This document shows positions 31,673 through 35,260 of a DNA stretch of 64,000 nt, piece by piece (the stretch's first letter is position 1; each line of letters opens with the position of its first letter). Source of the stretch: Methanosphaerula palustris E1-9c. Its GTDB lineage: Archaea > Halobacteriota > Methanomicrobia > Methanomicrobiales > Methanospirillaceae. The notes beneath the pieces are model-generated. The model had not been told where the DNA came from, ran no database searches, and saw only the letters and a program-made list of their open reading frames with translations. The DNA lies in contig NC_011832.1 of the NCBI RefSeq assembly GCF_000021965.1, positions 1,116,001-1,180,000 of the forward strand, read 5' to 3'. The position numbers and the translations under genes are program-made.

Positions 31673-32275
31673 ATGAGTAAAACGAAAACCATCGCTGTGA
31701 TAGCGCTTGGAATTATCGTGGGGGCGCTGCTGGCATCATTCGGCATTGGAGGTACTCTCATTTACATTAAGGCACACACCATGGAAACGACGGTCAATGG
31801 CTGGAGCACCACCCTGAATTACGGTGAATGGGGTAACAACATTCTCTTACGAGCAGCGTTTGCCCAGGTCCTTCCCGCCGCGAACGTGCCAGAGGAGGCA
31901 GTGTACTGGACGACAACCGTGGACAGCATGGGTAGCAAGCTGAACGGGACACATGACTATATCCTGCACTTCCCAGCTGGCGGGCTCCCTCCCAACGATG
32001 TCTTCTGGTCGTTGACAATGACCGACTTACAGAGTTACATGGTGAACAATTCGATAAACCGCTATAACGTCGGTTCATTGTCGAACCTTACACCGAACGC
32101 TGATGGGTCCGTTGACATTTTCATACAGAACTCACCGCAATCCGGCAACGAGTCCAACTGGCTGCCGGCGCCCGCAGGCACCTTTAAGTTGTGGCTTCGC
32201 GCCTATCTGCCGGGCCCGGCAATCTTGAACGGTTCGTACCAGGTGCCGCCTGTCGTGGAGGTGAATTCGAAATGA
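31673..32275 (+). CDS. DUF1214 protein, copy 1
   Basis: A 200-residue protein with one N-terminal membrane anchor (IAVIALGIIVGALLASFGIGGT) and an extracytoplasmic DUF1214 domain ending NWLPAPAGTFKLWLRAYLPG. In bacteria DUF1254 and DUF1214 are usually fused in one larger secreted protein of unknown function; here the halves are separate genes in the order DUF1214-DUF1254, repeated twice. GGAGGTAAGAGTTA precedes the start. The stop overlaps the next start (ATGA). Confidence 0.82.
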   Translation: MSKTKTIAVIALGIIVGALLASFGIGGTLIYIKAHTMETTVNGWSTTLNYGEWGNNILLRAAFAQVLPAANVPEEAVYWTTTVDSMGSKLNGTHDYILHFPAGGLPPNDVFWSLTMTDLQSYMVNNSINRYNVGSLSNLTPNADGSVDIFIQNSPQSGNESNWLPAPAGTFKLWLRAYLPGPAILNGSYQVPPVVEVNSK

Positions 32276-32862
32276 TATTCGAAGATCTGTTTATATTCAG
32301 TTCGGTCATGGTCGTGGCATGGTTCCTTTTCATCTACAAATGGCCAAGCCTGATTCTATACGTGTACAAGAGAGCGATCCTCGTTAAAGGGTTCGGCGAA
32401 GGCCCCATCCCCGTTAATACGCTCTATACGGAGCCCCAAAAATTATTTGCAGAGCCAATTATTTCGCAATCTGCATCGGGCTCGAATTTGATGACTGTTG
32501 GCGTGAACCACGACACGCTCCCTACAGTCGGCTGGCTCGACCTCAGTAAAGGATCACAAGTCCTGCACGTTCCGGATATGAATGGCCGTTACTACAGCGT
32601 GCAGTTCACGAACCCGTCGAACAACACCATTTTTGCCTACGTCGGCAAACGCACCACGGGGACCGAAGCCGGCGACTACCTCATCACAGGGCCGAACTGG
32701 AAAGGACAGGTGCCGAGCGGCATGAAACAGATATCCTCGCCGAACCGCTCGGTACTGGTCATCGGTCGAGTGCTCGTGGAGAGCGACAACGACCTACCGA
32801 CCGCCCATCACCTCGCAGAACAAATACAGCTCACACCGCTAAACCAGAAGGGATCACTATGA
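32272..32862 (+). CDS. DUF1254 protein, copy 1
   Basis: A 196-residue protein with an N-terminal hydrophobic anchor (FIFSSVMVVAWFLFIYKWPS) and a DUF1254 domain: GIPVNTLYTE-like PIPVNTLYTEPQKL, TVGVNHDTLPTVGWLDLSKG, VLHVPDMNGRYYSVQFTNP, GTEAGDYLITGPNWKG. The ATG at 32272 overlaps the stop of the DUF1214 gene, and the end overlaps the next DUF1214 gene by four bases. It probably forms a complex with the DUF1214 product outside the membrane, by analogy with the fused bacterial proteins. Confidence 0.82.
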   Translation: MIFEDLFIFSSVMVVAWFLFIYKWPSLILYVYKRAILVKGFGEGPIPVNTLYTEPQKLFAEPIISQSASGSNLMTVGVNHDTLPTVGWLDLSKGSQVLHVPDMNGRYYSVQFTNPSNNTIFAYVGKRTTGTEAGDYLITGPNWKGQVPSGMKQISSPNRSVLVIGRVLVESDNDLPTAHHLAEQIQLTPLNQKGSL

Positions 32863-33527
32863 ACAGCAAAACATACGCTATTCTTACGGCACTCATCGCC
32901 GTGATAATCGTTTATTTCATCATCAATTCGTTCATCTTAAATCCCACTTCAAGAAATGTGCGTAATGACGTGATTCAGGGTTTCCTCATCGGTTTTGGGC
33001 TGGCGTTTGTTACGACCCAGATTTATGCGAGGATCAAGACCAAAAAGATCAACGGCTGGACCACAATGTTTGGATGCGGCAAGCCCGGCAATGGCTTTCT
33101 GTTCAGAGCCGCGTGCGCCCAAATATTTCCTGGCCCGATAAACGTACCGCAGGAGGCGATGTACTGGACTACGGACGTAGATGGCGCGGGTCACCTGCTG
33201 TCCGGGGAGCATGACCACATCATGCATTTCCCGGCTGGACAACTCCCGCCAAACAATGCATTCTGGTCGCTAACTCTGGGTGATGCGAGAAATCATTTTG
33301 TGCTAAATTCGATAGATCGATACAGCGTCAGCGACCGCTCCGGCCTCGTTCCGAATGCCGACGGTTCTGTCGACATTTACATCCAGAATGCCGCTCGGGC
33401 AGGTCATGAATCTAACTGGCTGCCGGCACCTGCCGGCACCTTCAAGTTGTGGCTGCGAGCTTACCTGCCGGGCCCGGCAATCCTGAGCGGTTCGTACCAG
33501 GTGCCGCCCGTCGTGGAAGTGGACTGA
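32859..33527 (+). CDS. DUF1214 protein, copy 2
   Basis: A 222-residue paralog of the gene at 31673. Two hydrophobic stretches lie at the N-terminus (AILTALIAVIIVYFIINSFI and IQGFLIGFGLAFVTTQIYA), so it may span the membrane twice, unlike copy 1. The DUF1214 body (VDGAGHLLSGEHDHIMHFPA, PPNNAFWSLTLGDA, NADGSVDIYIQ, NWLPAPAGTFKLWLRAYLPG) is close to copy 1. The last base of its stop is the first of the next start (TGATG). Confidence 0.82.
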   Translation: MNSKTYAILTALIAVIIVYFIINSFILNPTSRNVRNDVIQGFLIGFGLAFVTTQIYARIKTKKINGWTTMFGCGKPGNGFLFRAACAQIFPGPINVPQEAMYWTTDVDGAGHLLSGEHDHIMHFPAGQLPPNNAFWSLTLGDARNHFVLNSIDRYSVSDRSGLVPNADGSVDIYIQNAARAGHESNWLPAPAGTFKLWLRAYLPGPAILSGSYQVPPVVEVD

Positions 33528-34102
33528 TGCTAGATATCAAACACAAGCAACTGCGCATTTTCGCCTTGACAGTGCTCATAGTACTGGCAATAGGGATCCC
33601 CCTTTACATCTACTATTATCCACACCTGATTTACAACGCGTGGGATAATGCGATAGTCAAGAACGGCGACGGAGCAACGCCAAATTCCACCGGTATTCCC
33701 GTCAATACGCTCTACACACTGACAACCCTCGCTTCCCCATCTACACATAATAATCTGGCAGGTGGAAACCACGACACGCTCTACACGATAGGCGTGCTTG
33801 ATCTGAGCAAAGGGCCGCAGGTTCTGCACGTGCCGGATATGGATGGACGATACTACAGCATCGAGTTCGTCGACCCCTGGGGAGACGCCTCCTATGTCGG
33901 CCAACGCGCCACAGGTACTCAGGCGGGGGACTATCTCATCAGCGGACCTGACTGGAAGGGAAACCTGCCTATGGGAACGACACAGGTAGCCATTTCGGAC
34001 AACCAGGTACTCGTCCTCGGAAGGGTGCTCGTGTATAATGATACTGACCTGACGACTGCCTATAACCTTTCGAAACAGATACAGCTCACGCCATTGACAT
34101 AG
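33527..34102 (+). CDS. DUF1254 protein, copy 2
   Basis: A 191-residue paralog of the gene at 32272: N-terminal anchor (IFALTVLIVLAIGIPLYIYY), then GIPVNTLYTLTTLAS, NHDTLYTIGVLDLSKGPQVL, HVPDMDGRYYSIEFVDPWGD, GTQAGDYLISGPDWKG. With the three preceding genes it forms a tightly overlapping four-gene operon that arose by duplication of a DUF1214-DUF1254 pair. Sequence divergence between copies is clear, so the duplication is not recent. Confidence 0.82.
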   Translation: MLDIKHKQLRIFALTVLIVLAIGIPLYIYYYPHLIYNAWDNAIVKNGDGATPNSTGIPVNTLYTLTTLASPSTHNNLAGGNHDTLYTIGVLDLSKGPQVLHVPDMDGRYYSIEFVDPWGDASYVGQRATGTQAGDYLISGPDWKGNLPMGTTQVAISDNQVLVLGRVLVYNDTDLTTAYNLSKQIQLTPLT

Positions 34103-34229
34103 AGATTACTAGGTGTTTATCAAGGCGTATACAATCATTCATGGAATGGACCGAACCTTTCAACATCCGATATTATTGCACCTACCTTACTGGGCGATGA
34201 GAAAGGAGAAATCCAAATATTTTTTATAT

Positions 34230-34266
34230 GAAAATCGGGAACTCGCCGGTTCCCCCTGAAATTTTC
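34230..34266. repeat. imperfect hairpin after the DUF1214/1254 operon
   Basis: GAAAAT (34230-34235) pairs with ATTTTC (34261-34266) and GGGAAC (34237-34242) with GTTCCC (34249-34254), with unequal bulges. It follows a T6 run. It may help end the operon or be a protein site. Confidence 0.4.
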
Positions 34267-34330
34267 ATCTTGTATGCTTGTGGCCTTCGGCATCGTGTCT
34301 GTTTAATGAGAAAAAATGGGTGATCCGGCT

Positions 34331-34463
34331 TTACTCTAAAGTCAATTCTGCGCTAAACAACGAGCTCTGCACCTAAAGTGCAATTTTTGCACCAACAGTA
34401 TGGGTTGCACCGAAAGTCCGATTTCTACACCTAAAGTCTTGAAAAATAGGTACTTTAGGTGCA
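34331..34463 (+). repeat. array of 12-bp TGCACCTAAAGT repeats before a promoter
   Basis: Copies or near-copies of TGCACCTAAAGT start at 34331 (weak), 34349 (weak), 34368 (exact), 34388, 34406 and 34426, spaced 18-20 bases, so they fall on about the same face of the helix. A last copy is inverted, ACTTTAGGTGCA at 34452-34463. A TATA box (ATCTATATAG, 34481-34490) follows at once, then an ATG at 34513. The arrangement looks like a multi-site operator or an iteron-like array. Confidence 0.7.
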
Positions 34464-34480
34464 AAGCCACTAAAAAAAAG

Positions 34481-34490
34481 ATCTATATAG
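34481..34490 (+). promoter_or_regulatory. TATA box downstream of the repeat array
   Basis: ATCTATATAG lies about 25 bases before the ATG at 34513. The following bases (GTCAATCCACCTAAG) resemble those after the TATA box at 31493 (GTCAACCCACGTGAG), so the two promoters seem related. Confidence 0.5.
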
Positions 34491-34512
34491 TCAATCCACC
34501 TAAGTTGTCACT

Positions 34513-34977
34513 ATGACGCGAACGAAACATAACCAGGCAATGATGGTGATATTCCTTAACCTCCTAGAGGGAGGGGTTATCTACCTCAACCTTATTGTCC
34601 ATCCGGATGCCAGCCGGGCCTGACCCTGCTTATAACCTGCATTTTTGCTATTGCCGCTGGACTCTCCATATGGTACTCGACAAAGGTCAGAGGTATAATT
34701 TTTACCTGATGCACGGGAACTGCTTTGGGGCAATACCGACGAGCTGGAAATTCCCTTATTCCAACTGCAGATCCTACGAAAATGGCAGAAGAACTATTCG
34801 CGAAAGTGAAGGAGATTGCATGAGATTGAACCTTTCTGAAATTGGTCACTGGACTGACTGGTGCCAGAAAAACAAAAATCGCAGACAATTTCAGCCCAGG
34901 AATTCTTGGGCATTAATACTGGAGAATTCGCGATGGATGCAAAAAAAGATGAAGGTAGCGTGCCATACGTATTGTAA
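34513..34977 (+). pseudogene. decayed small membrane protein gene
   Basis: The frame from 34513 gives MTRTKHNQAMMVIFLNLLEG and then a stop; a one-base shift continues as LTLLITCIFAIAAGLSIWYS, a second membrane helix. Further pieces in shifted frames (KMAEELFAKVKEIA, then TGLTGARKTKIADNFSPGIL, INTGEFAMDAKKDEG) read like one protein with at least three frameshifts or stops. The original family was not recognised. Its promoter with the repeat array looks intact. Confidence 0.5.
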
Positions 34978-35109
34978 TTTCAACAAACCCTGTATCCGCG
35001 ACAGATCATCTCTCCTCCATTGTCGAATACTTTCTGCCAGTCACCCACTCCTCGTTAATGTCCATGAGGATTGCTCCTGCAAGCCTGAGGAGTGAATCTT
35101 CGTTAGTGA

Positions 35110-35260
35110 ACGCACCCACAACGCCGGCCTCCGCTTCATGTTGAAGAGCGGCGTCGACTCCGTCATCGAGAGGTCTCGGGTGGAGGGCACAGGCCGTTCT
35201 GTTATTTCCAGAGATGACCGCCATCGGAAACATCCTGCCGGCATGGTTTCGCCGGCCGGA
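35110..35260 (+). pseudogene. degraded DUF2178-like fragment
   Basis: TTGAAGAGCGGCGTCGACTC and CGTCATCGAG match the intact gene at 36531 (AAGAGAGGTGTCGACTCC, GTCATCGAGG). GAGATGACCGCCATC at 35214-35228 repeats the end of the fragment at 21480, and CATCCTGCCGGCATGG follows. Frames are broken. It suggests repeated duplication and decay of this family in the region. The rest of 34978-35515 has a TATA-like CTTTATATCT near 35318 and no other gene. Confidence 0.45.

Follow-up and report, generated by a model that had tools for sequence, protein, structure and literature searches.

The phased array of 12-bp repeats at 34327-34468 of the window (the whole 64,000-nt stretch of the Methanosphaerula palustris E1-9c genome analysed here) is, with high probability, an old non-autonomous (MITE-like) remnant from a family of archaeal transposons with a DDE transposase, in most members one with a SWIM zinc finger. 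This reading, which comes from computational analysis throughout, is backed by the perfect right tip of the window copy, by spacings typical of the family and by a counterpart in another genus.

The array in the window

An earlier note on this DNA had described six direct copies or near-copies of a 12-bp word, TGCACCTAAAGT, with starts 18-20 bases apart, and one inverted copy, ending 20 bases before a TATA box. Four of the direct copies are good (34368, 34388, 34406 and 34426) and their starts are indeed 20, 18 and 20 bases apart; the inverted copy is perfect (34452-34463), and a TATA-like sequence, CTATATA, starts at 34483, 20 bases past it. The outer two direct copies are degenerate: in an ungapped match to TGCACCTAAAGT the copy at 34331 has 4 mismatches and that at 34349 more than 5, and neither is recognisable that way.

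Five of the six matches to TGCACCTAAAGT with at most 2 mismatches in the window are inside the array cluster, while the largest cluster seen in 300 order-1 (Markov) shuffles was 2. The word is not scattered through the genome (2,922,917 bases, a single contig): the 11-mer GCACCTAAAGT occurs exactly twice, both times inside the array. The 17-bp tip described below, with up to 3 mismatches allowed, has genome-wide matches in the window array only; thus the element is present in a single copy. Its features are as follows (G215 is a genome of another genus in the same taxonomic family).

34327-34468, + strand (direct units read forward): probable transposon relic, non-autonomous (MITE-like), 142 bp; left-end 0/18/38 and right-end spacing as in intact members, boundaries backed by the G215 copy
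34327-34342, + strand: apparent left terminal repeat, decayed, GGCTTTACTCTAAAGT; two-base gap and one-base insertion relative to GGCTTTGCACCTAAAGT, next unit 18 bp on in G215
34349-34360, + strand: direct unit, degenerate; TGCGCTAAACAA in the window, TGCACCTACATA in G215
34368-34379, + strand: direct unit, perfect match to the motif TGCACCTAAAGT
34388-34399, + strand: direct unit, 2 mismatches to the motif
34406-34417, + strand: direct unit, 1 mismatch to the motif
34426-34437, + strand: direct unit, 1 mismatch to the motif; its start precedes that of the inverted copy by 26 bp, a step found in 42 array pairs
34452-34468, - strand: right terminal repeat, perfect match to the tip GGCTTTGCACCTAAAGT; contains the perfect inverted 12-mer 34452-34463

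Phased sites with a TATA-like sequence 20 bp downstream could also form an operator array, on which a regulator binds cooperatively and controls the promoter at 34483 or a small RNA near 34510. We consider this very improbable. There is only one such site in the window's genome, and no Rfam family matches at the array; the regulatory or small-RNA role proposed earlier is left without support. Further evidence against an operator came from arrays in other genomes.

Spacing of the word across archaea

A second genome of the taxonomic family has the same layout, down to a convergent copy that follows the last direct copy by 26 bp. We scanned one genome for each of 84,980 species with a query of two direct copies, 10 letters per half. 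Archaea account for a large part of the 64 stretches found, with Thermoplasmatota, Methanosarcina, Methanoperedens, ANME-1 and several DPANN lineages represented. Despite the 10-letter query halves, most archaeal matches carry the full 12-mer with spacings 18, 20 and 26; these features are absent from most bacterial matches and from two archaeal ones (L029 and L031), which sit within repetitive genes. The exact end pattern was not found in viral contigs.

Three steps dominate the 92 distinct arrays collected: direct 20 (69 pairs), convergent 26 (42) and direct 18 (37) make up 148 of the 172 neighbouring pairs. Many of the loci come from metagenome-assembled genomes, with genes called there by a simple longest-frame rule. 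The neighbouring genes have unrelated functions, the placement of the arrays is variable and many are outside promoter position, which is not what an operator should show. One array adjoins an Hsp20 gene; a heat-shock element was considered and rejected, as the neighbours at other loci are unrelated.

Transposon ends and target duplications

Alignment of the arrays showed the outermost units to be longer, reading GGCTTTGCACCTAAAGT, and to form inverted repeats that face each other; arrays at transposon ends are bounded by inverted tips GGCTTTGCACC...GGTGCAAAGCC. Directly outside the tips we saw perfect 9-bp duplications in 20 among 492 tip pairs, against ∼0.002 expected with uniform bases. Altogether, 28 elements (counting L177 and L178, which are one insertion in two species) have 9-bp target duplications matching at 8-9 of 9 positions, 23 being perfect and 5 having one mismatch; the shortest of these elements is 48 bp long and the longest 5.2 kb. 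Such boundaries around the arrays are again an argument against an operator.

The two ends of intact members differ: (i) one end has the tip and, at about +18 and +38, the 12-bp word in direct orientation; (ii) the other has the tip and inward copies of opposite sense at about +28 and +48. With number and spacing varying, the same layout holds for the words TGCACGTAAA, TTGTTGCATAA and TTGTAAAATAA; it is also seen for TTGTCCGAA, with shifted spacing, and, in looser form, for TTGCTCCTTT and TTGCACCTTTA. Three bacterial relatives (two annotated as IS5, one as hypothetical protein) have the tip and lack the repeats.

One short word repeated head-to-tail may also recall iterons of a replication origin or a partition site, for instance of an integrated plasmid, and iteron-like origin control had been mentioned in the earlier note. 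The probability of this is, in our estimate, close to negligible: arrays elsewhere are transposon boundaries, enclosing a transposase or unrelated cargo and flanked by target duplications, and the open frames at 28-42 kb, part of which were searched with Pfam, included no obvious gene for replication or partition.

The 9-bp targets of 36 elements have a weak symmetric preference, with T at position 3 and A at position 7. At one locus (L226, 2554-13147) two adjacent family elements share a flanking 9-bp target, TAACTCTTA, as if one element had inserted at the duplicated target of the other.

Transposase and cargo

The longer elements enclose a protein of ∼400 aa with a SWIM zinc finger and a DDE_Tnp_1 domain; SWIM is present in 12 of the 14 transposases of the archaeal family. 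Other genomes of the phylum were also searched for the transposase, and 17 out of 393 carry a gene for it (E below 1e-40). Around these genes, a search that made no use of the tips recovered once more inverted repeats with 9-bp duplications on either side of the gene; the elements are 3.5-6.7 kb long, and their tips read GGCTTTG, CGCTTTG or, once, GGCGTTG. In most of them the word just inside the tip is repeated. At some transposase loci (e.g. L217, L218, L220, L223, L227 and L231) no pair of inverted repeats and duplications was found; these are partly short contigs or broken genes. A member of the transposase family was also seen in a 5.06-kb element with terminal inverted repeats and a 9-bp duplication (L194, 5210-10268) on a 618-kb contig from a viral collection.

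In the transposase tree the archaeal proteins form a clade apart from the bacterial ones. The word groups fit this tree with the fewest changes possible, a value that none of 200 shuffles reached, even though one of the groups does not form a clade. Among distant members the word shifts with the transposase clade, with the grammar of the ends largely kept. Such co-variation is expected if the transposase binds the word.

The best match of the transposase is the NCBIfam IS5_2 model (NF033579; 133 and 121 bits, thus below the cut-off of 140). A fold search with a model of the transposase gave only weak matches to DDE enzymes, none below E 0.001, and a sequence search for a solved structure gave no convincing match.

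The transposase is the sole gene common to the transposase-bearing elements compared. Other genes carried are those of an EcoRI-type methylase with a GmrSD/HNH protein also matching a type II restriction enzyme model, type I methylase and specificity genes, and genes of an FRG-domain protein, a metallo-beta-lactamase-fold protein, NosD-type beta-helix proteins and a serpin. A 5-kb element with a perfect 9-bp duplication (L107, 465-5479) carries a TetR regulator, an ABC ATPase and a MacB-type permease, and has no transposase.

We infer the following mechanism. Transposase subunits would bind the phased sites cooperatively at both ends, and the bound transposase would bring the ends of the element together; insertion by a 9-bp staggered cut would then leave the 9-bp target duplication. 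Short elements, which carry two ends only, would be mobilised in trans. The earlier suggestion that the phasing serves cooperative binding fits this mechanism; however, the likely protein is a transposase on transposon ends rather than a regulator.

The window copy and its counterpart in G215

G215 has this array too, behind the same upstream sequence. Identity between the window and G215 is 81% in the array (34302-34464) and 80% in the upstream flank (34114-34225). Array and flank are equally diverged between the two genera; therefore, nothing suggests selection on the array. This removes the argument that the array is well preserved and so serves something else, and an array conserved no better than its flank is a further point against an operator.

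The 34349 unit is clearer in G215, where it lies 18 bp after the decayed tip; the comparison supports it as a real unit, and in the same comparison 34327-34342 looks like a decayed terminal repeat. For this reason 34327-34468 was taken as the best pair of boundaries, with a left end of 0/18/38 followed by a right end of canonical spacing. The element so delimited contains no open frame of at least 60 aa, and no target duplication is detectable at its boundaries. The alternative left boundary, 34363 (AGCTCTGCACCTAAAGT, 2 mismatches), gives a 106-bp element (34363-34468) with a duplication of 7/9 at a 2-nt shift; with a chance of 1-2%, we did not rely on it as a decayed target duplication.

The missing duplication, the degenerate left tip, the single copy and a genome in which no full-length SWIM transposase was found all speak against a transposon remnant. 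Most likely, judging from these sequences, the window copy is an old non-autonomous relic, presumably inactive.

In another, unlikely reading, the upstream coding remnant (34108-34230, LLGVYQGVYNHSWNG...) belongs to a larger cargo element of the same family, of which the array forms only the right end. Larger cargo elements do exist in the family, and the homology to G215 runs through this remnant and on into the array until it stops at the right tip (34464). The stop can be explained by rearrangement as well, since the next downstream gene of G215 has a relative ∼5 kb upstream in the window. Moreover, a decayed left tip with 0/18/38 spacing is present at 34327, and a search of the 8 kb upstream yielded no left tip with a matching duplication. 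As the G215 copy shares the upstream sequence, insertion as a short element, and not as one end of a larger one, is probable rather than certain. The upstream remnant has a convincing match in G215 only; matches in two other genomes (G138 and G141) were weak and were dismissed.

The surroundings are rich in other repeats. From the G215 counterpart ∼75 bp of 34226-34314 are missing. A second dispersed repeat, 34252-34314, immediately preceded by a palindrome, GGGAACTCGCCGGTTCCC, is found in many genomes of the taxonomic family and once more in the window's genome (95% over 44 bp). Two further dispersed repeats, 34763-34869 and 34954-35127, lie within the stretch taken earlier for a broken gene, the latter with two other copies in the genome at 89% identity; this stretch looks like a graveyard of mobile elements. 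Further upstream (31673-34102), a DUF1214-DUF1254 gene pair is duplicated in tandem.

Relation to known systems

One of the closest systems is the IS903 group of the IS5 family. Elements of this group are ∼1050 bp long with 9-bp duplications (PMC3281130), and IS903B has the tip GGCTTTGTTGAATAAATC and a 9-bp target duplication (PMC10569121). Outward promoters are possible in IS903-group elements (PMC3281130); a side effect of the array on transcription is thus possible, which is a point on the side of the operator. The archaeal family shares with the group the GGCTTTG tip, the 9-bp duplication and a related DDE transposase. IS903-type elements have ∼1.05 kb and one gene of ∼310 aa, without SWIM and without subterminal repeats, whereas the archaeal elements have SWIM mostly, repeated subterminal sites, several genes or cargo, unlike ends and 3.5-6.7 kb.

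MITEs and mobile insertion cassettes are similar in that they include short transposase-less elements with IS-type ends and transposase-less elements with cargo (PMC10969869, PMC3281130); the ends of the archaeal family differ in holding phased arrays of 12-bp sites, with left and right layouts unlike each other. By the usual marks of a MITE, the window copy is shorter than 500 bp and non-coding and has terminal repeats (the right tip equal to the family consensus, the left one degenerate), with target duplications present in its short relatives; MITEs have several genomic copies, and this element has one.

The ends of Tn7 are unlike each other and built from several transposase sites, and those of the archaeal family are similar. 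Defence-rich cargo is another likeness to Tn7-like elements (PMC8649781). On the other hand, the archaeal family has a single DDE_Tnp_1 transposase as its sole common gene, and its duplication is of 9 bp, not 5 bp. MULEs combine a SWIM zinc finger with a DDE transposase, make a 9-bp duplication and frequently carry genes; however, the archaeal catalytic domain is DDE_Tnp_1 of the IS4/IS5 type. The archaeal transposase had no match to the MULE transposase model, its Pfam matches being DDE_Tnp_1 and SWIM.

In the open literature (ISfinder, preprints and subscription journals lay outside this scope) we found no description of archaeal SWIM transposases with such ends. The tips, the 9-bp duplication and the transposase place the archaeal family beside the IS903 group of IS5; we did not file it as a plain member, because it departs from the group in size, in single-gene content and in the lack of subterminal sites.

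Implications

A wider picture, to which we give about even chances, is that of an archaea-wide family of cargo transposons. An IS903-type DDE transposase would have gained a SWIM domain and would read phased copies of a word laid out differently at each end, arriving at unlike ends of the Tn7 kind with one protein only. Moved by this transposase, cassettes that lack a transposase gene would carry genes for efflux, restriction and surface proteins between DPANN, Thermoplasmatota and methanogens.

What appeared to be an operator array becomes a marker for a family of mobile elements in several archaeal phyla, one that moves operons and defence genes. Thanks to the strict grammar of spacings, complete elements, transposase-less cargo cassettes among them, can be found easily, and because word and transposase change together, DNA recognition is open to a direct test. 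As for the window itself, its array is a caution against a regulatory reading.
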